From a virus: 64,000 nt of DNA. This document shows positions 4,075 through 63,903 of the stretch, piece after piece. The stretch spans positions 19,455 to 83,454 of IMG/VR virus record IMGVR_UViG_3300048672_000219; one strand, 5' to 3'. Position 1 is the stretch's first letter. Each line of letters starts with the position of its first letter. The position numbers and the translations under genes are program-made. A model generated the notes under the pieces. That model was given only the letters and a program-made list of their open reading frames with translations, did not search any database and was not told the DNA's origin.

Positions 4075-4328
4075 CACTCACCCTCCAGCCGAGCAATAGC
4101 ATGTTCCATAGCCAGAGCCTTCTTCAGATATTTCTGATAGCTCACAAGCTTTGCGAGTTGTTTGCGATATTTTTGTAGATAGGCATGGCAATCATATTCC
4201 TCTTCCAAATCCCCTTCCTCATCGGCCTCTTTCTTCCAATTTTTAAAGTCTTGAATCAGACGTTCCGTGAAAGAAATCTCTTCACGAGTTTTAGAAATCA
4301 TCGACTGGATGGTGCTTGCATAATTCAT
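4074..4328 (-). CDS. coiled-coil hypothetical protein, 84 aa
   Basis: Highly charged and helical throughout, with heptad-like spacing in the central part (ERLIQDFKNWKKEADEEGD) and a basic second helix. No known family. ATG at 4328 follows AAGGAG. Confidence 0.7.
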   Translation of the reverse strand: MNYASTIQSMISKTREEISFTERLIQDFKNWKKEADEEGDLEEEYDCHAYLQKYRKQLAKLVSYQKYLKKALAMEHAIARLEGE

Positions 4329-4339
4329 TTGTGTTCTCC

Positions 4340-4651
4340 TTATCGTTTAGCATCAATGAAAGTGTTATCCAAAGCCTGAACTACAACAGGGTCAGTGATG
4401 AACACACAATGATTGATATTGATACCAGCCCATTCATTACTCACCAGCGGATAATAGTAATTCTCTTCATCACCTACTCGTGCTTGATAGATAACCTTAT
4501 AGACATCTCCCACTTTATACCAATTATAATCCTTTGCTTCCTTCACAACAACATAAACTTGCTCAGGCTGGTGCAAGTCTTCCATTTCCTTTTGAATCTC
4601 TTCCAGTTGCTTCTGTAGAGCTTTCAGCTTTTGTTCTTTAGTTGTGTTCAC
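4340..4651 (-). CDS. hypothetical protein with N-terminal coiled coil, 103 aa
   Basis: Residues 4-28 form a strong heptad-type helix (KEQKLKALQKQLEEIQKEME). Residues 32-103 are beta-like with aromatic residues (YVVVKEAKDYNWYKVGDVYKV). The layout, coiled coil plus small SH3-like barrel, resembles the protein at 16276-16635 in reverse order. Function unknown. Confidence 0.7.
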   Translation of the reverse strand: MNTTKEQKLKALQKQLEEIQKEMEDLHQPEQVYVVVKEAKDYNWYKVGDVYKVIYQARVGDEENYYYPLVSNEWAGININHCVFITDPVVVQALDNTFIDAKR

Positions 4652-4660
4652 TTGTTCTCC

Positions 4661-5233
4661 TTATTTATAAACTGCAATCAACAGTTCTCCCAGATTATCA
4701 TAATACTGAAAATCTTCAAATTTGTCCAACACTTTCTTGAGATAAGCATTACCTTGTGCGTACAAAGTATTTGTCTTAAATATCGAGTTGTGTTTCACAG
4801 TGATGTTAAAGTCTTTGTCAGTTTTAATTTGACCATTCTTGTACCAAGCCTTGCAAATACTCAGCGGAAATTGATTCTCAACTTTGAAAGGACTGTCCTT
4901 GACAAGAATAAGCTGCACGTCAACATCATCAATCTGAGCGTTAAACACAGCACGAATATTTGGATTATGGTTGTACCAGTTTGGCAAATCGTCAGCAGCC
5001 TTGGACGAATCTACTTCAAATCCAGCAATCTTCAACATCTTATTGATAATACCAATTTGCACATGATCTTTCACAGAGAAGAACAAGTCAATGTCTTTTG
5101 CTGGCTTGTTGAAATACCAGTCTCGCGGAGCGCCACCCGCAACAATTGCAAATGGGTCAATAAGATAACTCATTGCCAAAGCACGATCTGCAACTGCTTG
5201 TTGCTTCTTGATTAGATTTTCATTTTCCGTCAC
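4661..5233 (-). CDS. nucleotidyltransferase-fold protein
   Basis: A 190-residue protein with the polymerase-beta-type nucleotidyltransferase signature: GGAPRD (33-38) followed by KDIDLFF with Asp47 and Asp49, as in the head domain of CCA-adding enzymes and MNT-type transferases. A third acidic position may be in IDDVDVQL. It would transfer a nucleotide to an RNA, protein or small molecule; the substrate cannot be read from sequence. First gene after promoter 5276-5304. A role in tRNA end repair is possible but unproven, because both well-formed phage tRNAs here already encode CCA. Confidence 0.75.
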   Translation of the reverse strand: MTENENLIKKQQAVADRALAMSYLIDPFAIVAGGAPRDWYFNKPAKDIDLFFSVKDHVQIGIINKMLKIAGFEVDSSKAADDLPNWYNHNPNIRAVFNAQIDDVDVQLILVKDSPFKVENQFPLSICKAWYKNGQIKTDKDFNITVKHNSIFKTNTLYAQGNAYLKKVLDKFEDFQYYDNLGELLIAVYK

Positions 5234-38806: not shown

Positions 38807-39763
38807 ATGGGTAAAGACAATATAAAGCGTACAAATGAGTACATTATTGACAAGTCAAAAGAGTTACATGGAGAGCATACTTACGGGTATGATAAACTTG
38901 AGTACATCAACACTAAGAGTAATATAATATTGCTGTGCAATAAATGCAATGATTATTTCAGCGTCACGGCAGGAGCACACGTTGGAAGCAGAAGAGTAGG
39001 CTGTCAAAGATGTAGTGCAGAACGTAGAACCAAAGCTCAGACAGGAAGTAAAGAGCAAATGATTGCAAAAGCATTGTTAAATCACCCTCACGGAGCTTTC
39101 AATTATGATCGAGTAGAGTACAAAACGGCGAGGATTAAAGTTGAAATAGGCTGCAATACATGCGGGGTGTGGTTTTGGCAAGAGCCACATCAACATACAA
39201 TAGGTGTTGGTTGCAAGAATTGCAGAAACATTAAATTGGCAAAAGACAGAAGTCATTCCAAAGAACAATTTATAGAGGAAGCTATCAAGATCACCGGAGA
39301 TAAGTATGATTATAGCTTAGTAGAGTACAAGAATGCAAGAACATATGCAGAGATAATCTGCAACGACTGTGGATCACATTTCAAGAAGAAGCCTACTGAG
39401 ATATTGAATGGTCAGGGCTGCAAATGCCACAACAAAGGTGGATATGGATATGATCCAAAACAAGCTGGAATTCTTTATGTGCTAGAATGCGGAGACATAA
39501 CTAAAATCGGTATTACAAATAAAAGATTGTCAAGTAGAATAAAAGCGGTAAGTTCTTCGTTTGGTGCAAAATTTAAAGAAATTAAAACTTATAATCTTGA
39601 AGGTCAATTCTGCACCGACTTAGAGACACAGTTGCTAATTGAATTACGAAGTAAATATAGAAATCCTATTCAAAAGTTTGATGGGTACACAGAATGTTTT
39701 TACTATGTAGATAGAGCAAAATTACTGAATAGAATTGAAGAATTGATTAAGGAGAATAAATGA
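38807..39763 (+). CDS. free-standing homing endonuclease (T5orf172/GIY-YIG type)
   Basis: A 318-residue protein. Three treble-clef-like zinc units of about 65 residues each fill the first 220 residues (LLCNKCNDYF..CQRCS; IGCNTCGVWF..CKNCR; IICNDCGSHF..CKCH). The C-terminal nuclease domain begins GILYVLECGDITKIGITNKR and ends with DGYTECFYYVD. It is related to the protein at 50034. The stop codon overlaps the large terminase ATG (ATGA), and it supplies that gene's AAGGAG. The intron in that terminase gene lies only 90 bases downstream. Confidence 0.83.
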   Translation: MGKDNIKRTNEYIIDKSKELHGEHTYGYDKLEYINTKSNIILLCNKCNDYFSVTAGAHVGSRRVGCQRCSAERRTKAQTGSKEQMIAKALLNHPHGAFNYDRVEYKTARIKVEIGCNTCGVWFWQEPHQHTIGVGCKNCRNIKLAKDRSHSKEQFIEEAIKITGDKYDYSLVEYKNARTYAEIICNDCGSHFKKKPTEILNGQGCKCHNKGGYGYDPKQAGILYVLECGDITKIGITNKRLSSRIKAVSSSFGAKFKEIKTYNLEGQFCTDLETQLLIELRSKYRNPIQKFDGYTECFYYVDRAKLLNRIEELIKENK

Positions 39764-43102: not shown

Positions 43103-44185
43103 ATGGCATTTGTATATCACATCCATCTCCCAGAACAGTCGGGGGAATATGATAAGGGTTATATTGGGTTTACTGCAACAACTGTATCTGAAAGATTTAA
43201 AGAGCACGTTGCTCTGGCAGCCATTGCGGAAAATACCTACACATTACATAATGCGATTCGTAAACACGGTGATGCTCTTGTCGTGACCACTTTGGTAGAA
43301 GGCAGCAGCGAATATTGTCTAGATATAGAGTATAGGTTGCGACCATATCCAAATATCGGATGGAACATTGCCTGTGGTGGTTCTGCACCCATGTTAGGTA
43401 GAAAACATAGTGATGCAACACGTACCAAGATAAAAGCTATATTTACTCCAGAGCATATTAAGAAGATTTCTGATAGGCAAAAAGCTATACCTACTTGGTG
43501 CCGAGGTTCATCCGATAAAGCAGTATGGGCAACCGCTTCTGAAATTTTCAAATGCTACAACGCTAATAAGGATGTAGGTGCTGTTGTGATTGGAAGGGCG
43601 TTTGGTCTTTCAGAAAAGAAATTGGAAGCAATGCTAAAGAAATTTAAATCTGGGTGGGTTCCAGATAATGATGAGGATTGGAAGATTTGGTCTGAGGATA
43701 AACCGAAACTAGAAAAAATTTGGGATGATTCTCAAGGAAAACTTCAAGCTAAAGCTGCTGAAATTACACCAGAATTAAGGGCAGCGCGGTCAAAGGGAGC
43801 GTCAGGGCGAGTCTGGACTGAAGAGATGAAGGATGCTCTTATTTTACGAAATAAAGGTAAACGGCACACCGAAGAATCCAAGTTAAAAATTTCCAAATCA
43901 AAAATAGGTAAAAAACATACTGAAGAACAGATTCAAGCTAGGAAAGATCGACTAGCCAAGCAACCTTGGACTAATGCGGCTAAACCCTACTTTTGGACAA
44001 AAGCTGAAGACATACGACAATTCTTGTTAGCTGGAAAAACGCAAGCAGATATATTGAGGTTCTTTGGTCTAGACAGAAAGAGTGGTTCACTTGCTGTGAT
44101 AATTAAGAAAATAAAGTTTGGTTGGAATCCATCCGAGGATGAAGATTGGATTTCCTTCAAAGAAAATTATGCAAAGGAATCATAA
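43103..44185 (+). CDS. GIY-YIG homing endonuclease with NUMOD-type repeats
   Basis: A 360-residue protein. The GIY-YIG domain is N-terminal (FVYHIHLPEQSG and KGYIGFTATTVSERFKEH; LDIEYRLRPYPNIGWNIACG with Glu). DNA-binding repeats follow (MLGRKHSDATRTKI; GKRHTEESKLKISKSKIG; KKHTEEQIQARK), NUMOD3-like, and a C-terminal helix-turn segment. It sits between portal and protease genes and its stop overlaps the protease ATG (TAATG). Confidence 0.9.
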   Translation: MAFVYHIHLPEQSGEYDKGYIGFTATTVSERFKEHVALAAIAENTYTLHNAIRKHGDALVVTTLVEGSSEYCLDIEYRLRPYPNIGWNIACGGSAPMLGRKHSDATRTKIKAIFTPEHIKKISDRQKAIPTWCRGSSDKAVWATASEIFKCYNANKDVGAVVIGRAFGLSEKKLEAMLKKFKSGWVPDNDEDWKIWSEDKPKLEKIWDDSQGKLQAKAAEITPELRAARSKGASGRVWTEEMKDALILRNKGKRHTEESKLKISKSKIGKKHTEEQIQARKDRLAKQPWTNAAKPYFWTKAEDIRQFLLAGKTQADILRFFGLDRKSGSLAVIIKKIKFGWNPSEDEDWISFKENYAKES

Positions 44186-50033: not shown

Positions 50034-51167
50034 ATGGGAAGAAAGTTAACTCAAAAAGAATTTGTAGAACGTTGCAATAATAATCTTGATAAAAATCAAG
50101 ATGTATCTAAGTCCATATATGTGTCAGCACTATCTAAGGTTAAAGTTATTTGCAAAATTCACGGAGAGTATGAGTCTGTACCTGCAAAATTGATGGCAGG
50201 ACAGGGTTGCTTCCAGTGTGGCAGAGTTTCTACAGGATTGAAGAGACGAATTTCTGTTGAAGACTATTTTAACCGATGCAGAGAAGTCCATGGAAACAAT
50301 TATGATTACTCCGAAGTGAACTTCACATTGATAAGAGATAAAATACCAATAATTTGCAAAGCTTGTAATAACAAGTTTGTCATGCAAGCAGATGCCCACG
50401 CCAGAGGTCAAGGCTGTCCCCTATGTAATAAGGGTGCAGGATCAAGAGCTAGAAGGATACCCTGCGAAGATGTATTAAACAGGATAGAGGGTACATATGG
50501 CAATTTGTTAACTGTAACTGGTATTGAATATAAAAATGGTTTGGCGCACATAACAGGAAAATGTGAAAAACATGGATGTTGTTTCACAAAATCTTTAAAA
50601 CTGTTAATGAAGGCAAATCCTTGCACATCTTGTCAAGATGAGGTTAATGAGACAACCAGAAAGAAATACGAAAAGTTCTTTATAGAAAAGTCTACATTGG
50701 CGCACGAAGGCAGGTATTCGTATGAAAATTTAGGCTATATTAATAGGGTCACTCCTGTCGAAATATTCTGCAAATTGCATAATAAGACGTTTATTGAAAA
50801 ACCATCAAACCATATGGCAGGTGGTGGACATTGCCCAGATTGTGATCCCAGAGGAAGAAAGTGCCACATTTACATACTGGCTGCCGAAGGTATTACTAAG
50901 ATTGGAATAACAAGAAAAACCCCAAGTGCAAGATGTAAAACAATAAATAAAGAGTCTCCTTTCAAATTTAACGTTTGGAAATCTTATGTATTTGATACAG
51001 AAGAGATACCTGAAAATGTAGAGAGTCGAAGTTTACTATATTTCAGAAATTTGTACTCCAATCCAAAACTCCCGTTTGACGGATATACAGAATGCTTCTT
51101 TGATCTGCTACCTGAGATTGCAGACATGAAGATACAAGAGCTAATTGCTCAATATAATCACAACTAA
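50034..51167 (+). CDS. homing endonuclease (T5orf172/GIY-YIG type) with zinc repeats
   Basis: A 377-residue protein, relative of the one at 38807. Four treble-clef units (VICKIHGEYES..CFQCG; IICKACNNKF..CPLCN; GKCEKHGCCF..CTSCQ; IFCKLHNKTF..CPDCD) are followed by the nuclease domain HIYILAAEGITKIGITRKTP and the shared end FDGYTECFFDL. Inserted between tail tube and tail chaperone genes, with its own promoter. Confidence 0.84.
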   Translation: MGRKLTQKEFVERCNNNLDKNQDVSKSIYVSALSKVKVICKIHGEYESVPAKLMAGQGCFQCGRVSTGLKRRISVEDYFNRCREVHGNNYDYSEVNFTLIRDKIPIICKACNNKFVMQADAHARGQGCPLCNKGAGSRARRIPCEDVLNRIEGTYGNLLTVTGIEYKNGLAHITGKCEKHGCCFTKSLKLLMKANPCTSCQDEVNETTRKKYEKFFIEKSTLAHEGRYSYENLGYINRVTPVEIFCKLHNKTFIEKPSNHMAGGGHCPDCDPRGRKCHIYILAAEGITKIGITRKTPSARCKTINKESPFKFNVWKSYVFDTEEIPENVESRSLLYFRNLYSNPKLPFDGYTECFFDLLPEIADMKIQELIAQYNHN

Positions 51168-55100: not shown

Positions 55101-58100
55101 ATTGCCAACGCAATCATAGATGGTGGTGGTAAAGGGTGGAAAAAACTAGTCAACGATATGAAACTAGCTTTTGCAAAGCTCATACTGAATCCAATTATTG
55201 CCCCAATTAGTGCAGAACTCGCAAGCTTGACAGCAATTGCTAACCCTTCATCGGCGTCTGCTGCTGAAGGAACATCTTCTGTAGGTATGTTATCATCAGC
55301 AATGAACATCTACAAAGCAGTATCTGGTGGATTCTCGTCTTTGAGTAGTTCTGCCGCCAGTGGTATGCAGTCTGTGCAGAATATGCTTGGTGAAAGATTT
55401 GGTGGAACTGGTGCAGGTGCTGGCAACTCAACAGGAGCGTTTGCTAATTCCTTTGGCGAGATTGCTGGAAAAGCAGCAGGCTTTGCAATCGGGCAAACCT
55501 TGAATAAATCTTTGTCTGGTGAATTCCAAGTAGGTAGTGGATTTGGTAAAGTTGAAACTATTGCCACAGCAGTAGCATCTTATTTTGGCCCTCAATTTGG
55601 TGCAATTGCTGGTGCGGTGAGTGGCCTTGTAAATAAACTGTTTGGCATGGGTTCCAAGAATATCTCATCTCAAGGTATCTCTGGAAATATTACAGAGGAC
55701 GGTGTAACTGGTCAAGCTTATGCCAATTGGTCGCAAAAAGGTGGCTGGTTCCGCAGTGATAAATCAGGTACAGACACTTCTGCATTATCGGCTGATGTAA
55801 TCAATTCATTCCAGAGTGGTTTAACTTCTCTGAAAGCTGCGTCAACTGACTTTGCTAAGAATGTGAATGTTTCTGCTGACGCACTGAACAACTATTCTAA
55901 ATCATTTGATATTCAGTTTGTAGGCTTAAAAGAAGTTAAAGGTACTGCTGCTGAACAAGCTGCCATTATCGAGTCAAATAGTAAGATTCAACAAGAAGCT
56001 GTAACGAAGTTCTTCACCACAATGGGTGACGATATGGCTACTAAGTTGATTCCAAACATTGCTGATTTTGCCAAGAACGGTGAAACTGCTTCTGTGACAT
56101 TGCAACGACTATCTAGCACATTCACAGCAACTAATCAAATTGCAGCAATACTTGGCAAGAGTGTTGAGAGTGTATTTGGCGGTATTGGACTGGAATCAGA
56201 TAAAACCCGTGAGCGCCTTATAGATTTAGCTGGTGGATTGAGTAACCTGCAATCAAAAACTACAGCGTATGCTACAGCTTTCCTATCGGATTCTGAAAAA
56301 TTAGCTCCTGTGCAAAAAGCTCTCTCTGCTGCTATGGAAAATCTTGGTCAATCTTCTGTTACTACCAAAGACCAATTCAAAGCAGTAGTAAACAGTCTTG
56401 ACTTAACCACAGATGCCGGTGCAACGCTATTTAATAATTTGATGGATATTGCTCCTGCGTTTGCTCAAGTTGCTGATGCCGCAGAGGCAGCACAAGCTGC
56501 CACACGTAAGCTGCAAATTGCTCTGTTGGAAGCTCAAGGCGAAAACCTGAAAGCTCAGTCGATGAAGCGGGAAGATGAATTGAAGCCGTTATCAGATTCA
56601 GATAAGGTGATTCAACAACAAATCTACGCTGCTCAAGATAAAGCAATTACTGACAAACTGCTATTGTCTCTAATGCAGGCTCAAGGTGACGCTCAGGGTG
56701 CGCTGGCTGTAACTCGTGCAAATGAATTGAAGCAACTATCTGAAACAGACCAATTGATTCAGAAACAAATTTATGATGCAGAGGATAAAGCTAAAACAGA
56801 GGCTTTAACATTGACTCTTCTTCAAGCTCAAGGGAAAGTTTCTGAAGCATTGAACATTACCCGCGCTAAAGAGCTTGCGTCATTGTCTGAATCGGACCAA
56901 GTTATTCAACGACAAATATATGCGTTGGAAGATAAGGCGAAGATAGATAAGTTGAATCTCTCTTTGACGCAAGCACAAGGAAATGCTCAAGATGCTTTGG
57001 CAATCACTCGTGCAAATGAGCTTGCACAGATGACCGATGCTGAGAAAGTTATTCAACAACAAATTTATCTCACTGAAGACAAAGCTAAAACTGATTCTCT
57101 TAGCTTGGCCTTGCTGCAAGCTCAGGGCAAAGCTCAAGAAGCTTTGAACATTACTAGAGATAAAGAATTAGCTGCATTAAGTGATTCTGATAAAGTTATT
57201 CAAAAGCAAATCTATGCTGCTCAAGATGCCGCTAAAATTGCCTCGTTGCAAATTCAATTAGTGACTGCATTAAGTGGTGCTCAAGCTGCATTAAGTCTGA
57301 CTCGTGCTAAGGAAGTAGAGGGATTGTCTGCTCAAGAGGCAGCGATGAAAGCCACTATTTATGCTGCTCAGGATGCTGCTGTTTCTGACAGGTTGGGTTT
57401 GGAGTTGATCACTGCACAAGGCAGAGCGCAGGAAGCTTTAACAATTACTCGCAACAACGAGTTGGCTGCGTTGTCCGAGTCCGATAAACTAATCAAGCAA
57501 CAAACTTATGCTGCTCAGGATAAGGCTAAAACTGACTCGCTGAACATTGCTCTCCTACAAGCTCAAGGAAAAGTGCAGGATGCTTTGTTTGCCAATAGGG
57601 TAAAAGAGTTGAGCGTATTGAGTGATTCGGACAAGGCAATTCAGCAGCAGATTTATGCTGCTGAAGACAAAGCTAATTCGGACAAACTTGATATTGAACT
57701 GATGCAAGCCCAAGGTAAATCTCAAGAAGCTCTTAACATTACTCGTCAAAATGAGTTGAACGCTCTCTCAAAAAGTGAGCAAGTTATCCAGCAACAAATA
57801 TACGATGCCCAAGATAAAGCCAAAACAGATGCACTAAATCTGGCACTGTTGCAGGAGCAAGGCAAAGCTCAAGAGGCTCTTGCTGTAACTCGTGCAAACG
57901 AACTGGCTTCGCTCTCAGACACTGATAAAGCAATTAAACAGCAGATTTATGCTGCTCAAGATAAGGCTAAAACTGACGCTTTGGCATTGGAATTGATTAA
58001 TGCTCAGGGTTATGCTCAATCATATTTGGCAGCAACTCGTGCCAAAGAGCTTGAGTCGTTAAATGAGACAGACAAGGCAATCAAACAACAGATATACACT

Positions 58101-59738
58101 GCCCAAGACAAAGCTAAGACGGATGCTCTGTTGGTAACTCTGCTGCAAGCCCAAGGTAAAGCTCAAGAGGCTTTGACAACACAGCGAGAGAAAGAGTTGA
58201 GTACGATGAGTGATTCTGATCAAGTCATTCAAAAGCAGATTTATGCTGCGCAAGACAAGGCAAAAATCGATACATTGAATGTTGATCTTCTCCAAGCTCA
58301 AGGAAAGGCTCAGGAATACTTAGCAGCAACAAGGGCTAAAGAGTTGTTTGGTTTATCTGAAGAAGAGAAGGCTATTAAGCAGAAGATATATGCTTCGCAG
58401 GATGCTGCAAAAACCGCAGCTTTAGAGCTTGAACTTGTAAAGCAACAAGGGTTAGATTACAAGGCACTGTTGATAACTCGTGAGCAAGAGCTTTCACAAC
58501 TGTCCGAGTCAGATCAAGTTATTCAGAAGCAGATTTATCGCCAACAAGACTTGAATACTCTGTATGGTTTGAATGTAAAGCTGTTGGACGCACAGTACCG
58601 CTCACAAGAGAGCGTCAACATGCAGCGCGAAAAGACCCTTGCCGGTTTGTCTGCGGAAGCTGCTGTATTGCAAAAGGCTATTTATGCTGCACAAGATGCT
58701 CAAAAAGCTGTTGACACAGGCATGACCAAGCTCACTGCTTCAGTGAATGCTCAAAAGGCTGTAATTGAAGCTCAGTACAAGCAAGCTAGTGATATGCTGG
58801 CTGCACAGAAGAAAGCTGCCACAGACGCTGCCCAATCTTCGATTGACGCAAGCAAAACTAGTTTGTCATCTATTCAATCTATCCAATCTTCGCTGAGTGG
58901 TGCTTTGAAAGATGTTCTTGATAGTTCTACGGTACTCACGCTAAAGGTTCGGAATAACGCTCTAGCTGCACTTCAAGGCATTTCCGGCTCTCGGGACTTA
59001 AACAGCCCTGCAATGATGGATGCTATTAAGACATTGGCAAAACCGTCAGAGCAATTGTACAGCAATCTTGAGGACTATACAAGATCGCAGATGCAAGTCG
59101 CTAATACGATTGACAACCTCAATTCACAGGCAGTTGACCAAGTTTCTTTGGCACAACAATCCGTCGATTTGCAAGAGGCTAATCTGAAAGTCTTGACTCA
59201 ATGGTTTGATAGTCAGCAAGCATCTTTAGATCAGCAGCATACTAACGCAGTGGCAGAACAAGACGCCATCCTTAAAAATGCCCAAGATCAGATTGATGCC
59301 TTGCGAAACATTGACAATAGTGTACTAAGTGTAGAGCAAGCTGTCTCGGACTTGGCTATTGCCATTGCCAATGCTAAGGCAACAACCATAAGTTATGCCC
59401 CAGCAAGTAATTTGTTAGATGTAGCACAAAAAGCTGTCTCTAGCACTTATCCTAGCTTAGATGTTGGAACCAATGCTTTGCCAAGTGACATGACAATTAA
59501 TGCACATGCTGGTGAACGTATTATTCCTGCGGCAGATAATCGAGAAATCATGCGTCGTCTTGAGCAACCCGAGAACGGTTCTAGTGCAGAGATGGTGCAA
59601 TCTATCGAATCACTGAAAGAAACTGTGCGAGCGGGTCAAATCGCTACTCTGCAACTCAATCAACAGATGTACCGCTTGTGGAAGAAATTCGATCAAGACG
59701 GTATGCCTGAAGTACGTGATGTAGAGGCTATTGGCTAA
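52107..59738 (+). CDS. tail tape measure protein, 2543 aa
   Basis: Very long tape measure. Residues about 150-430 are the TP901-type core (SVGRDVESTLEGIRVRG; YGPQEVAKAFETLILAG; GVLSNLGIQGSAAGTALKNM). Two hydrophobic stretches follow (about 530-590, AFVALKAGFIVAAVW and VNATMGAVAVVVGVAAAAWY), likely for membrane insertion on DNA entry. Residues about 1470-2205 are fifteen 49-residue helical repeats. The C-terminus is typical of tape measures (NALPSDMTINAHAGERIIPA). At about 1.5 angstrom per residue the tail would be near 380 nm; this is an estimate. Confidence 0.95.
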   Translation: MADINITVASNGVDEATKRMNDAASAADKLDNKVEKLGKTSEAASKKISSVFKALDEAAKSAAPSLEDLFQAYQKLENQIQQNVVQNSALANAMRTNTSAVNNLTSAQVGLNSNLSSTQSNLAAVDRSQRSSNESMREAHALARGLSGSFGALWVTYGNIAGMSVGLAIGQALKGIVSVGRDVESTLEGIRVRGNETVDSVNEIRKSVEDLGKGVYGPQEVAKAFETLILAGLNANQALSAINSTMNLAVAGGTSLEKSASTLVSVGTSIGYVAEGYNRVGDVISKTAALSMSSVETLSEAFKSASSVASLYGVTLEDIGTSLGVLSNLGIQGSAAGTALKNMYKELNSEADKVQKTFKELGLTQLSFKDSAGNFKPLLEVVKELDASLKQLSGSDEKLAIARLSNERGLRLITAALDQYRVKTSESTNALEDFQGNVTDSYGFMAKAAVQMSLTADNQMKMVTNSMKTGFASAFETIQPEIISVSSRLKEAFQSEGFKEALRSLALLFANMAEAIASNLPVVIKLAEAFVALKAGFIVAAVWQSAATGILAVREAMLGLATASAAVNATMGAVAVVVGVAAAAWYAYSSAQEDANKAQKDAIDYSKGYIEGIRAEADNLEKVNEKLREGIALKDVQKKVESDNSRLLQIQKENDAVEEARKNLEKANEAATKYSSQNNIDKMIAAREALAAAEEHQRQSAINAFDEELRLNRLAKENAELVLQAQKNAQSGRDEPTKTLSHEDKTKAMGLSAIEAEISAIRASSEEKRRILISEEKLYEETYRGKMMSVLEYADKESKVLKARQDLVTETYAKEVSAILVSENLKGRTETERNELAKKRSDLYTKWVDDIAKLNDAMSANEVLVSSVFKKERDEAQATSDKVIEAIKKRTASVQAQVDAYNSLPDSVRKAGVTEKQLADEVAQAQIDALKRKRATLEELSGSTMYDADAIARYTRNIQEMEDERDVLAARELQRATNKNIQDYNTAWKQSNKQIGDDIANAIIDGGGKGWKKLVNDMKLAFAKLILNPIIAPISAELASLTAIANPSSASAAEGTSSVGMLSSAMNIYKAVSGGFSSLSSSAASGMQSVQNMLGERFGGTGAGAGNSTGAFANSFGEIAGKAAGFAIGQTLNKSLSGEFQVGSGFGKVETIATAVASYFGPQFGAIAGAVSGLVNKLFGMGSKNISSQGISGNITEDGVTGQAYANWSQKGGWFRSDKSGTDTSALSADVINSFQSGLTSLKAASTDFAKNVNVSADALNNYSKSFDIQFVGLKEVKGTAAEQAAIIESNSKIQQEAVTKFFTTMGDDMATKLIPNIADFAKNGETASVTLQRLSSTFTATNQIAAILGKSVESVFGGIGLESDKTRERLIDLAGGLSNLQSKTTAYATAFLSDSEKLAPVQKALSAAMENLGQSSVTTKDQFKAVVNSLDLTTDAGATLFNNLMDIAPAFAQVADAAEAAQAATRKLQIALLEAQGENLKAQSMKREDELKPLSDSDKVIQQQIYAAQDKAITDKLLLSLMQAQGDAQGALAVTRANELKQLSETDQLIQKQIYDAEDKAKTEALTLTLLQAQGKVSEALNITRAKELASLSESDQVIQRQIYALEDKAKIDKLNLSLTQAQGNAQDALAITRANELAQMTDAEKVIQQQIYLTEDKAKTDSLSLALLQAQGKAQEALNITRDKELAALSDSDKVIQKQIYAAQDAAKIASLQIQLVTALSGAQAALSLTRAKEVEGLSAQEAAMKATIYAAQDAAVSDRLGLELITAQGRAQEALTITRNNELAALSESDKLIKQQTYAAQDKAKTDSLNIALLQAQGKVQDALFANRVKELSVLSDSDKAIQQQIYAAEDKANSDKLDIELMQAQGKSQEALNITRQNELNALSKSEQVIQQQIYDAQDKAKTDALNLALLQEQGKAQEALAVTRANELASLSDTDKAIKQQIYAAQDKAKTDALALELINAQGYAQSYLAATRAKELESLNETDKAIKQQIYTAQDKAKTDALLVTLLQAQGKAQEALTTQREKELSTMSDSDQVIQKQIYAAQDKAKIDTLNVDLLQAQGKAQEYLAATRAKELFGLSEEEKAIKQKIYASQDAAKTAALELELVKQQGLDYKALLITREQELSQLSESDQVIQKQIYRQQDLNTLYGLNVKLLDAQYRSQESVNMQREKTLAGLSAEAAVLQKAIYAAQDAQKAVDTGMTKLTASVNAQKAVIEAQYKQASDMLAAQKKAATDAAQSSIDASKTSLSSIQSIQSSLSGALKDVLDSSTVLTLKVRNNALAALQGISGSRDLNSPAMMDAIKTLAKPSEQLYSNLEDYTRSQMQVANTIDNLNSQAVDQVSLAQQSVDLQEANLKVLTQWFDSQQASLDQQHTNAVAEQDAILKNAQDQIDALRNIDNSVLSVEQAVSDLAIAIANAKATTISYAPASNLLDVAQKAVSSTYPSLDVGTNALPSDMTINAHAGERIIPAADNREIMRRLEQPENGSSAEMVQSIESLKETVRAGQIATLQLNQQMYRLWKKFDQDGMPEVRDVEAIG
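56515..58720 (+). repeat. fifteen 147-bp repeats coding 49-residue units in the tape measure gene
   Basis: Each unit follows the pattern IYAAQDKAKTD..L.L.LLQAQGK.QEAL..TRA.EL..LS.SD..I.QQ (shown in parts). Units differ by many synonymous and some conservative changes, with QAQGKAQEAL and SDKVIQQQIY best kept. 49 residues equal seven heptads, fitting a continuous coiled coil. Confidence 0.88.
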
Positions 59739-59750
59739 TTGTTGTATAAA

Positions 59751-59780
59751 GGGAGGCTTTCGGGCTTCCCTTTCTTTTAT
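59751..59780 (+). terminator. terminator after tape measure
   Basis: GGGAGGC-TTTC-GGGCTTCCC stem with one G-U pair, then TTTCTTTTAT. The next gene starts within 20 bases, so read-through must occur. Confidence 0.68.
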
Positions 59781-59796
59781 AAGAAAGAGGGATATT

Positions 59797-60945
59797 TTGA
59801 AAATCATTGCCCCAATCACAATAACAGATTCTAATTTAACATATTCAAATGTATCTGGAACGGATAATCCTGCATACAATCCAATAAAGCTTTACATCTC
59901 AGGAGAGACTGTACAGTTGGCTAATAGAAATTATGAGAGCTTGACAGGATCACAATCAAATGTTACAATAAGCACTTCGTCTCCCGCCACGATTACGTGG
60001 AATAATCATGGATTGGTATTAAATACTCCAATTCAATTTTCGACAACAGGGTCATTGCCTACTGGATTATCTGTCGGAACTACATATTATGTAATTTCCC
60101 CATCCACAACATCTTTCAATGTCGCATTAACTCCAAATGGATCACCTATTGCAACGTCTGGAACTCAAAGTGGTGTACACACAGCAAGGGCTTCCAACAA
60201 TATTGGAAAAGACCCTACCACGGCAACAACATTCTGGCTCGATCTGGGAACAGTTAATAAGTACAAAATGTTTGACACGTCTGTACAATCTCAGACAGTA
60301 AATTCTGGATCAATTGTAACGGTAATTCAAGTGTCAGGCTATTCATCACATGTGGCATTGCTTAATATCGTCGGCACTGATGCCAATGTTGTAATGACGC
60401 ACCCAACAGATGGAGTTGTCTACAATCAAACAAAATCCCTAAGGAGTTCTTCAGGAATTACGGATTGGTTCAAATATTTCTTTACACCATCAAATCCGAT
60501 AACAGACCTTGTGTTTGATGGTATCCCGAATTATGCCAACACCACAATTACAGTGACTATCAACAATGCTGGAGGTTCAGCAGCATGTGGGGCTTGCTTG
60601 ATTGGATTTGCAAAAGATATATCATCTCAGAAGGCTGGTGTTGAACAAGGGGCAAAGCTCACATTAGATGACTATAGTTTAAAAACTCCTGATGCATTTG
60701 GTAATTACACAATCAAGGAACGTGCGTTTGCTCGTAGAGCCGCATGGACTGTGTATATTGACGGAAAAGATGTAGACGGTGCTTACAACTTGTTATCGTC
60801 ACGTAGAGCCATTCCAACGTTGTACATTGGCGGCAAGGACTATGGAAGCAATCTGGTGTACGGCTTCTTCCGTTCATTTGACATCACAATTAATTATATA
60901 GATTTTCCTGCTGTATGCTCAATTGAACTTGCGGGACTCACTTAA
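59797..60945 (+). CDS. distal tail-type protein, 382 aa (TTG start)
   Basis: Beta-rich protein beginning MKIIAPITITDSNLTYSNVS. It has a carbohydrate-module-like middle (TTYYVISPSTTSFNVALTPN; DLGTVNKYKMFDTSVQSQTV) and a C-terminal part RAAWTVYIDGKDVDGAYNLL. It stands where a distal tail or tail-tip protein is expected. TTG at 59797 is chosen as AGAGGG lies just upstream; there is no ATG near the start. Confidence 0.65.
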   Translation: MKIIAPITITDSNLTYSNVSGTDNPAYNPIKLYISGETVQLANRNYESLTGSQSNVTISTSSPATITWNNHGLVLNTPIQFSTTGSLPTGLSVGTTYYVISPSTTSFNVALTPNGSPIATSGTQSGVHTARASNNIGKDPTTATTFWLDLGTVNKYKMFDTSVQSQTVNSGSIVTVIQVSGYSSHVALLNIVGTDANVVMTHPTDGVVYNQTKSLRSSSGITDWFKYFFTPSNPITDLVFDGIPNYANTTITVTINNAGGSAACGACLIGFAKDISSQKAGVEQGAKLTLDDYSLKTPDAFGNYTIKERAFARRAAWTVYIDGKDVDGAYNLLSSRRAIPTLYIGGKDYGSNLVYGFFRSFDITINYIDFPAVCSIELAGLT

Positions 60946-60967
60946 TAATAACACATAAGGAACCAAC

Positions 60968-62365
60968 ATGACAACACAAATCACACCGCTACCATCAGCA
61001 CCACAACGTACTGACGATGAAGCGACGTTTGCCGCAAAAGGGGACGCACTAATGGGGGCATTATCTCAATTTGTGACAGAGGCTAATGCTTTGATTATTC
61101 AGGCAGACGCTGATGCCTCCGCTGCTACATCCAGTGCATCTAGTGCTGCTCTGTCTGCTACAGGTGCTGCGGTAAGCGCTGCCACTGCTGCAAATGCGGC
61201 TGGTGCAACACTTTGGGTATCAGGGACCACTTACGCCCAATATGCAGTAGTATATAGCCCAACAAGCTTACTGAGCTATCGCAAACGTACTACTAGCAGT
61301 GTTTCCACCATCGACCCGGCTTCTGACTCCACCAATTGGCAACCACTTGCGCCAATCAGTATGGTGCGTAGTGCTAGATCGTCAAATACGCAACTAACAC
61401 CTTCGGACAACTCAAGATTAATTGATATCACTGGTGGCACATTCACTCAAACACTACCCTCTGCTTCTTCACTTGGGTCCGGTTGGTATTGTTTCTTGAA
61501 GAACTCCGGTTCAGGTACGGTTACTATTGGTGGTACTTCGCTCACATTGCAAACAGGTGAAGCTTATATTCTTCAGTGTGATGGGACAAATATCAATACA
61601 TTGAAGATTAGCTCATCAACTCGTGTTGAAACATTCTTGACAAATGGTACTTACACTACCGAAACTGGTCGAAAGTATTTTGTAGAAGTTGTTGGTGGGG
61701 GAGGTGGTGGTGGTAGCGGAAGTACAGGTGGCGGTGCTGGCGTAGGTGTAGGTGGTAACGGGGGGAGCGGTGCGGCAAGAAAATCCACAATGATTTGCAC
61801 AACATCTTCAACATCCATACCATATTATGTAGGGGCTGGTGGAAGTGGTGGGTCTGCTGTAACAAATGCCGGTGCATCAAATGGTGTTGCAGGGGGGAGT
61901 GGGAGTTCAAGCTCTTTTGGAGCAGTTATTGCCCTTGGAGGGGCCGGTGGAACTTACGGAGTAGCAGGCACAGATACGATAGGGGCTAGTGGGACAGCGG
62001 CAAATGACGCTGCTGGCGCTAACGGAGGGAATGGCGGAAGCGGAGTTTCTTCTGGAAATATCGGAAGAAATGGCGGACTGGGTGGGTCTGCTGGCACTAA
62101 CTCGGGTGGGTCTGCTGGAAGCGGTTCTAACGGAGGCGATGGCAGCTTGGTTGCCGACTACTTTGGAATGGGTAGCGCAGGTGGTGGAGGCGCTGGCGCA
62201 GGCATCTCATCAACTACACCAATATCGGCATTTGCTGGCGGCGCAGGTGCGCTTGGTGCTGCTGGTGGGGGAGGTGGTGGTGTTTCTACGCCTCTTGGAA
62301 CAGCCGGAACGTCTGGCAAGGGCGGCGATGGTGGACAAGGATTCATTCGCGTCTGGACACTATAA
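60968..62365 (+). CDS. tail fibre protein with glycine-rich C-terminus
   Basis: A 465-residue protein. N-terminal 30 residues (PLPSAPQRTDDEATFAAKGD) are a common fibre attachment sequence; an alanine/serine coiled-coil-like region follows (SSASSAALSATGAAVSAATA). The C-terminal 200 residues are very glycine-rich (VVGGGGGGGSGSTGGGAG), like polyglycine-II adhesins of T4 gp38 type that contact the receptor. RBS AAGGAACC. Confidence 0.78.
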   Translation: MTTQITPLPSAPQRTDDEATFAAKGDALMGALSQFVTEANALIIQADADASAATSSASSAALSATGAAVSAATAANAAGATLWVSGTTYAQYAVVYSPTSLLSYRKRTTSSVSTIDPASDSTNWQPLAPISMVRSARSSNTQLTPSDNSRLIDITGGTFTQTLPSASSLGSGWYCFLKNSGSGTVTIGGTSLTLQTGEAYILQCDGTNINTLKISSSTRVETFLTNGTYTTETGRKYFVEVVGGGGGGGSGSTGGGAGVGVGGNGGSGAARKSTMICTTSSTSIPYYVGAGGSGGSAVTNAGASNGVAGGSGSSSSFGAVIALGGAGGTYGVAGTDTIGASGTAANDAAGANGGNGGSGVSSGNIGRNGGLGGSAGTNSGGSAGSGSNGGDGSLVADYFGMGSAGGGGAGAGISSTTPISAFAGGAGALGAAGGGGGGVSTPLGTAGTSGKGGDGGQGFIRVWTL

Positions 62366-62374
62366 GGAGAAATA

Positions 62375-62794
62375 ATGAAAGCAGCACACATTGTAAATGG
62401 CAAGGTTGTAAATTACTGCATGGTCGCCTCATATGATTCGGCCTTTGTTGACCCTAAAGATTCAGTTTTAGGCGACTTGTGGGACGGTAGTAAATTCACC
62501 AAGCCAATAAAATCTCTTAAAGAGGTTCAACAAGAATTCTCTGACATTGTACAGAACATTTTGGACAGTAAGGCTAAGGAGAAGCATTATGATAATATCA
62601 TTTCAGCTTGTTCCTACGCAGGTGCTCCGAATCCTTTCCAAGCTGAAAGTCAAGCTTTCTTATCTTGGAGGGGCGATGTATGGCAGAAATGCTATGAGCT
62701 TTTGGCAGCAGTGGAGCAAGGCATTTCAACAGTCCCAACTGTAGAACAACTTATTGCTGAACTTCCTACACTAGTATTGCCAGTGAGTGAATAA
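62375..62794 (+). CDS. fibre-associated protein / putative tail fibre chaperone, 139 aa
   Basis: Starts MKAAHIVNGKVVNYCMVASY and has a helical C-terminus with FLSWRGDVWQKCYELLAAVE, like DUF4376/fibre assembly proteins that are found directly after fibre genes. RBS AAGGAGAAAT. Confidence 0.65.
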   Translation: MKAAHIVNGKVVNYCMVASYDSAFVDPKDSVLGDLWDGSKFTKPIKSLKEVQQEFSDIVQNILDSKAKEKHYDNIISACSYAGAPNPFQAESQAFLSWRGDVWQKCYELLAAVEQGISTVPTVEQLIAELPTLVLPVSE

Positions 62795-63078
62795 TGAAAA
62801 CAATACGACTACTCTCAATATGGGCAGTTTGTATTGTAGCATCCTTTCTAGCTTTAGGGAGGATGTTCTTTGCAATCTTCCTAAGCCCTGATAAGGCATG
62901 GCGAATATCAGTGGCAACAGACAGGCAAGCTAATGTTGCATTCAATGGCAACGAAAAGGAAACCATCAGTTCTCGTGCCTACAGAGGTACGAAAGAGGGA
63001 CGAACAGGGTGGTGTATATTATGTAAATTCCTCAATCTACTTGATAGAGGTCATTGCGAGAAATCAGAGGGTGTATAA
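62794..63078 (+). CDS. small membrane-anchored protein, 94 aa
   Basis: N-terminal membrane segment (LLSIWAVCIVASFLALGRMF), then ETISSRAYRGTKEGRTGWCI and HCEKS. This type is widespread in phages near fibre and lysis genes; its role is unknown. Start overlaps the previous stop. Confidence 0.72.
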   Translation: MKTIRLLSIWAVCIVASFLALGRMFFAIFLSPDKAWRISVATDRQANVAFNGNEKETISSRAYRGTKEGRTGWCILCKFLNLLDRGHCEKSEGV

Positions 63079-63080
63079 TT

Positions 63081-63620
63081 ATGAAAATTGAAATGCAACA
63101 ATTGAATGCCGACAAATATAAAATGGCTGTAGAGAATATGGATGAGTCTCCCGAAGAAGAGGCTATGGAAACTCCTGCTGAAGAAATGAGTGAGTTTGAA
63201 GAGACAATCAAAGCAGCTTTTGCAACAACATTCTCTTTCTATTTAAAAGCACACAACTTCCATTGGAATGTGGAAGATAAAGACTTCTTTGAATATCATG
63301 GACTATTCGGCTCCATCTACGAAGAAGTCTACTCGTCTATCGACTCGTTTGCAGAAAAGATTCGTGCATGTCAAATCAAAGTTCCTGCAAGCTTGTCATC
63401 ATTCAATCTTCTGTCTGTTGTGGCTGATGAGAATTCTTTCCCAAGTAAAGATGTAATGGTGGATACTCTTCTGAACGACAATGAAACTGTTCTAAAAATC
63501 CTTGGCCTTGCCTACGACGAAGCAGAAGAACTTGGCTATCATGGCTTTAGTAACTTCCTTGCAGAGCGCTTAGACGCACATAAGAAACATAGCTGGATGC
63601 TGCGCTCAAGTAAAGGATAA
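63081..63620 (+). CDS. Dps-like ferritin (DNA protection during starvation family)
   Basis: A 179-residue protein. After an acidic 40-residue extension comes a four-helix Dps core: FSFYLKAHNFHWNVEDKDFF, EYHGLFGSIYEEVYSSIDSF, AEKIRACQ. His61, His73, Asp88 and Glu92 have the same spacing (12, 15, 4) as the ferroxidase residues of E. coli Dps (His51, His63, Asp78, Glu82). The end FLAERLDAHKKHSWMLRSS is also typical. It would oxidise and store iron using peroxide, and may protect phage DNA. It lies between tail and lysis genes, so is expressed late. ATG at 63081 is chosen. Confidence 0.88.
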   Translation: MKIEMQQLNADKYKMAVENMDESPEEEAMETPAEEMSEFEETIKAAFATTFSFYLKAHNFHWNVEDKDFFEYHGLFGSIYEEVYSSIDSFAEKIRACQIKVPASLSSFNLLSVVADENSFPSKDVMVDTLLNDNETVLKILGLAYDEAEELGYHGFSNFLAERLDAHKKHSWMLRSSKG

Positions 63621-63624
63621 TTCA

Positions 63625-63903
63625 ATGGATTTGAACAATATAGTATTAGGTGCTCTTAACCTGTTGATGTTAGCTTTCGGGGTGGTCATCTGGGCGTCTT
63701 TCAAGGAAACTAAACAAATGGCTAAAGAAGCTCAAGATAAACTAGCAGAATATAAGATACATTGTGCAGAGAAGTTCATTACATCGGACGAACTTAGCAG
63801 AGTGGTTTACGAAATCAATGCCTCATTAGAAAAATATGCAACCCGAAGCGAAGCCGCCATTGACAAGATTCTTGCAAAGCTCGACTCCAAGCAAGACAAA
63901 TAA
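63625..63903 (+). CDS. membrane protein with coiled coil (holin or spanin candidate), 92 aa
   Basis: One membrane helix at residues about 5-25 (NIVLGALNLLMLAFGVVIWA), then a charged coiled coil (KQMAKEAQDKLAEYKIHCAE). This is the layout of inner-membrane spanins or class III holins. It directly precedes the probable endolysin. Confidence 0.7.
   Translation: MDLNNIVLGALNLLMLAFGVVIWASFKETKQMAKEAQDKLAEYKIHCAEKFITSDELSRVVYEINASLEKYATRSEAAIDKILAKLDSKQDK

Follow-up and report, generated by a model that had tools for sequence, protein, structure and literature searches.

A Dps-type mini-ferritin gene inserted beside the lysis genes of a phage distantly related to Pseudomonas phage vB_PsaM_M1

The gene described here, dps, encodes a 179-aa mini-ferritin of the Dps type and lies on the plus strand at 63081..63620 of the window, by which we mean the whole stretch of 64,000 nucleotides that was analysed. 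Bacteria rely on Dps proteins, which are small and store iron, to withstand hydrogen peroxide. The window is the final 64 kb of an 83,454-base viral contig, so that the gene sits near the contig end. The reading frame opens with the ATG at 63081 and closes with the stop codon at 63618-63620. Its product matches the Pfam Ferritin family PF00210 (E=1.2e-15; 58.1 bits against a gathering cut-off of 24.5) and PHROG 3636 (2.4e-29), and its top PDB sequence match is the Pseudomonas aeruginosa Dps PA0962 (8ff9, 1.4e-20). These three matches bear out the initial annotation, made from the sequence alone, in which the product was read as a Dps-like ferritin. The product scores below every cut-off of the NCBIfam Dps equivalog models, and we therefore regard it as a Dps that belongs to none of those named subtypes.

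The same annotation held that the gene is carried by a phage, and this is confirmed by the genes for terminase, portal, head protease, major capsid protein and tape measure on the same contig. The major capsid protein shares 66.6% identity with its counterpart in Pseudomonas phage vB_PsaM_M1 (89 kb, listed under Ounavirinae) and 66-79% with those of 31 metaviral contigs. It was the bait used to find related viral contigs; the tail protein encoded at 59731-60942 was unsuccessful as bait. The homologous head genes place the contig among the Ounavirinae-related phages and, judged by these genes, it is a genuine phage and a distant relative of vB_PsaM_M1. The host may be Pseudomonas or a related bacterium. 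Several homing or HNH endonuclease genes (38807-39763, 43103-44185 and 50034-51167) interrupt the head and tail modules, one of them between the portal and head protease genes. The tape measure open reading frame encodes 2543 aa and contains a long run of near-repeats at about 56300-58800 of the window, the unit of about 49 residues reading in translation LLQAQGKAQEAL..TRANELAxLSDxDKVIQQQIYAAQDKAKTDxL.

Upstream of dps, in the same direction, are the genes of the late module for a tail/baseplate protein, the tail fibre and fibre-linked proteins (59731..62794, plus strand), as assigned by PHROG matches and gene-order comparison. The immediate upstream neighbour encodes a 94-aa membrane protein (62794..63078, plus strand; PHROG 34710), and the immediate downstream neighbour encodes a 92-aa protein with a single transmembrane segment (63625..63903, plus strand), which precedes the endolysin gene and has counterparts in 12 of 17 related records. 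The order shared by the relatives runs from the tape measure through a tail protein of about 400 aa, the tail fibre and a small fibre-linked gene to a variable slot, the 92-aa protein and the endolysin, and this common order supports a late-gene position for dps, which the initial annotation had called late-expressed. In one relative, G008, an orthologue of the 94-aa protein fills the slot and is followed at once by the 92-aa gene, with no dps between them. In the window dps lies exactly between these two genes and is closely spaced with both. The ribosome-binding context AATCAGAGGG...ATG (63062..63083, plus strand), which lies at the 3′ end of the 94-aa gene, is common to both phages together with the start codon; it serves the 92-aa gene in G008 and dps in the window, where a new AAGGATAATTCAATG context, at the end of dps, serves the 92-aa gene. 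By this comparison dps is a one-gene insertion between the 94-aa membrane-protein gene and the 92-aa pre-endolysin gene. Misassembly at the contig end was considered and discounted, as the genes on both sides of dps match the order seen in relatives.

One copy of dps is known at this site. None of the 23 related-phage records searched, five of them longer than 80 kb, encodes a Dps, although most are fragments and the absence is firm only for the longest, and a search of the phage collection gave no Dps match for vB_PsaM_M1. The initial annotation had offered the supply of iron for virion assembly as one possible purpose of the protein; this found no support here, and no Dps is present in related phages whose head genes are homologous, so that it is not needed for assembly. 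The position beside the 92-aa gene is occupied in other relatives by a protein of about 168 aa (MKYxE...SGDLIALSH...ESEYSHV) that replaces both Dps and the 94-aa protein, at L123 (reverse complement) 4270-4773, L124:7446-7955 and L126:3256-3762. Compared across these records, the slot before the lysis genes is a variable cargo site.

The four ferroxidase ligands H61 (63261), H73 (63297), D88 (63342) and E92 (63354-63356), which span 63261..63356 on the plus strand, are spaced by +12, +15 and +4 residues in the His-His-Asp-Glu pattern of the Dps inter-subunit site. The ligands of P. aeruginosa Dps (PA0962) are H37, H49, D64 and E68 (PMC10002758), and the spacing is identical, so that the statement that four metal ligands are present at exact Dps spacing stands, with four of four P. 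aeruginosa-type ligands found. All four are unchanged in 24 aligned viral sequences and present in each of the 161 Dps compared (82 viral, including that of the window, and 79 cellular), and the pattern recurs in 80 further viral loci. Their retention in the 81 other viral Dps and these further loci argues for selection on ferroxidase function. Trp62 is conserved as well. The position of Listeria innocua D47, which is absent from the ligands listed for P. aeruginosa Dps (PMC10002758), is Gly77 here and mostly Q, E or G among relatives. Loss of this fifth ligand was considered as a sign of inactivity and rejected because related Dps are variable at this position. The tyrosine radical trap of P. 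aeruginosa Dps is partly retained in the PDB search alignment: Y30 corresponds to Y54, but Y27 corresponds to F51.

An AlphaFold2 model of the monomer, built on 24 sequences, has a mean pLDDT of 87 and the Dps helix pattern, with helices at residues 33-63, 69-96 (broken at 85-86), 105-108, 123-151 and 154-176. Alignment, model and structure comparison together assign the Dps core to 63195..63617 (plus strand), and in the model this core is a four-helix bundle whose B-C loop contains a short helix and which lacks a fifth helix at the C-terminus. The best 50 PDB fold matches of the model are all Dps-family proteins, headed by PA0962 with a target-normalised TM of 0.83 and 28% identity in the fold alignment. 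In a comparison with Dps dodecamers, of the kind that the initial annotation had called for, the predicted monomer matches the subunits of dodecameric Dps structures. PA0962 is thus the top match by sequence and by fold, equal in its four ligands and their spacing and likewise without basic tails. In contrast to PA0962, which is a bacterial chromosomal gene product, the protein of the window has a 35-aa acidic extension and only part of the tyrosine network.

The closest relatives of this protein are viral, at up to 58% identity, as compared with about 30-43% at best for the cellular Dps recovered when genomes were scanned with a helix A/B pattern. A C-terminal signature that emerged from comparison of viral and cellular Dps, DAHKKHSWM (63573..63599, plus strand), is present in 79 of the 82 viral Dps, the window included, and in none of 79 cellular relatives, and no relative turned up when 84,980 prokaryote species genomes were scanned with conserved C-terminal patterns. 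The tree groups 51 viral sequences, that of the window among them, in one clade with support of 95/100. Membership of the window protein in a virus-only Dps clade is therefore well supported at the sequence level, where virus-only means not found in the searched genomes with the patterns used. Its exact position in the tree is unsure because the window lineage has a long branch (0.85), the Dps of three isolate phages (L085-L087) lie outside the clade on very long branches, and few columns were available. These results bear on whether dps could be a recently captured passenger of no benefit to the phage. Its absence from all sampled relatives and its single insertion would fit such an origin, yet the nearest relatives are viral rather than cellular, the ligands and the C-terminal signature are intact, and the gene is served by a ribosome-binding context of its own and lies close to both neighbours; we consider a useless passenger very unlikely.

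The acidic N-terminal extension comprises 35 residues before the usual Dps start (63081..63185, plus strand), as delimited by alignment, surveys of open reading frames and pLDDT. Residues 1-38 contain 12 D/E and 3 K/R, in agreement with the earlier remark that this N-terminus is unlike the basic tail of E. coli Dps. In the model the extension forms a low-confidence helix at residues 3-21 followed by disorder, with pLDDT of 57-68 over residues 1-30. Alignment and surveys of open reading frames found this extension in the Dps of no other sampled member of the viral clade, and a scan for long viral Dps reading frames returned none. Phage Dps of similar length (183, 201, 182 and 187 aa) are known from the structure library, so extensions as such are not unique. 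Seeming extra N-terminal matches in L002, L016 and L045 were discarded because they read through stop codons. The start at 63081 is supported by the Shine-Dalgarno context that the Dps-less relative uses for its next gene. Initiation instead at the internal M36 (63186) would yield a 144-aa protein of typical length; this is less likely because the conserved ribosome-binding context belongs to the 63081 start.

The charge of the protein also weighs against an action on DNA. The whole product has a pI of 4.59 and a net charge of -18, and neither end has the Lys/Arg-rich tail of the E. coli-type DNA-binding Dps, the C-terminus stopping at SSKG. Because of this charge, the acidic tail and the lack of basic ones, DNA binding is unlikely on sequence grounds, and the initial suggestion of a DNA-protecting protein is disfavoured as far as protection by binding is concerned. 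The PHROG 3636 label, DNA binding, would accord with a Dps that condenses DNA or remodels the nucleoid, so as to shield or compact DNA, or that nicks host DNA as P. aeruginosa Dps does in vitro, but with these charges we judge such a role unlikely.

Dps genes in other viral groups have quite different surroundings. Dps proteins of uncultured freshwater phages (IMG/VR L002-L081) share 50-58% identity, intact ligands, DAHKKHSWM and one clade with the protein of the window; they differ in being mostly 142-150 aa without an extension, and in their neighbourhoods, which are either of a ClpA-like/PDF/DnaJ/PolB type or of a terminase-portal type. At seven loci of the latter type (L033:8585-12055, L051, L065, L068, L070, L078 and L081), Dps lies between the large terminase subunit and the portal, with an HNH-type protein after Dps and before the portal. 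In the ClpA-like group (54 loci, including L052:6503-15709 and L056:5814-13277), many of the proteins encoded around Dps start with short motifs, for example MRLRELLGE, MKLRELFEA or MRAKEFLSE. A hydrophobic-xE motif occurs in 14.5% of N-termini near Dps in this group as compared with 0.4-4% in other stretches. We take these N-termini to resemble the capsid-targeting peptides of T4, which suggests, on sequence, an array of packaged internal proteins; the Dps of this group does not itself have the motif. Uncultured Caudovirales phages also encode five proteins with BFVD models (A0A6J7XDU5, A0A6J7WIS1, A0A6J7WPK9, A0A6J5RFH1 and A0A6J7WVS4), annotated either as prohead protease or as Dps, that contain a Dps-like domain within 333-763 aa and, going by their models, are possibly mini-ferritins fused to head-maturation proteins.

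Such arrangements make it conceivable that the Dps of the window is a virion component, the acidic extension targeting the cage to the capsid or tail so that an iron or peroxide defence travels with the particle. The location in the late module, the viral models annotated as prohead protease that hold a Dps-like domain, and the terminase-portal placement in one viral group are all in its favour. However, relatives with homologous head genes lack Dps, no recognised targeting signal was found in the extension, and where sampled viral Dps are encoded among proteins whose N-termini resemble capsid-targeting peptides, the Dps themselves have none. We consider packaging of this Dps in the virion, which the initial annotation had also proposed, quite unlikely.

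Phage-encoded Dps is already known, and the gene of the window is no first. It has been published in Gratiaviridae and a further 36 gut phage genomes (PMC8008677) and in Lactobacillus phages (PMC6669764), with the same proposed role in tolerance of oxidative stress, although these are other phage families with other hosts, and Dps of the Lactobacillus phages adjoins replication genes whereas that of the window is found at the lysis genes. Annotated or detectable Dps are also present in the isolates Synechococcus phage S-SRM01, Aeromonas Lahexavirus and Bacteroides phage BS162P1, at 27-34% identity over half to three quarters of the length. The present gene adds a clean insertion site, placement in a virus-only clade and an acidic extension.

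The explanation that we favour, and think probable, is that the phage carries a Dps of the PA0962 type as a single-gene insert for late detoxification of iron and peroxide by a 12-subunit cage. It is the best explanation of the gene, fold, ligands, location and insertion described above, and would have the protein form a dodecamer, depend on peroxide, be expressed late and benefit the phage. The phage lineage would have gained dps as one inserted gene within its tail-to-lysis operon, and Dps would be made late in infection, as the gene order implies. The subunits would assemble into a 12-subunit cage with inter-subunit di-iron sites that oxidise free Fe2+ using H2O2 and store it as ferric mineral, averting Fenton damage to replicating and packaged phage DNA, and to the virion-producing cell, before lysis. 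PA0962 uses H2O2, rather than O2, for Fe2+ oxidation and shields cells from peroxide (PMC10002758). Because the ligands and fold are the same, the Dps of the window most likely acts as PA0962 does, inside the infected cell and at a late stage of infection; drift or a changed function is possible because the lineage is on a long branch, and the partial loss of the tyrosine radical trap also counts against this reading. The packaging-module Dps of another viral group, at seven loci, is a parallel in favour of the explanation. PADLOC returned no match, and so no support for a role in defence.

With the detection of this gene, an Ounavirinae-related phage group joins the viruses known to carry Dps, and it does so through a clean insertion in the lysis region of a gene from a well-supported virus-only Dps clade. 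As a long shot, phages could maintain a Dps lineage of their own, distinct from bacterial Dps in the searched genomes, which moves between unrelated phages as a late-gene cassette, while the extension found here would redirect the cage, for instance to the virion or the membrane lysis machinery. If phages do retain genes against iron or peroxide for the end of infection, free iron and H2O2 would limit burst size in nature.
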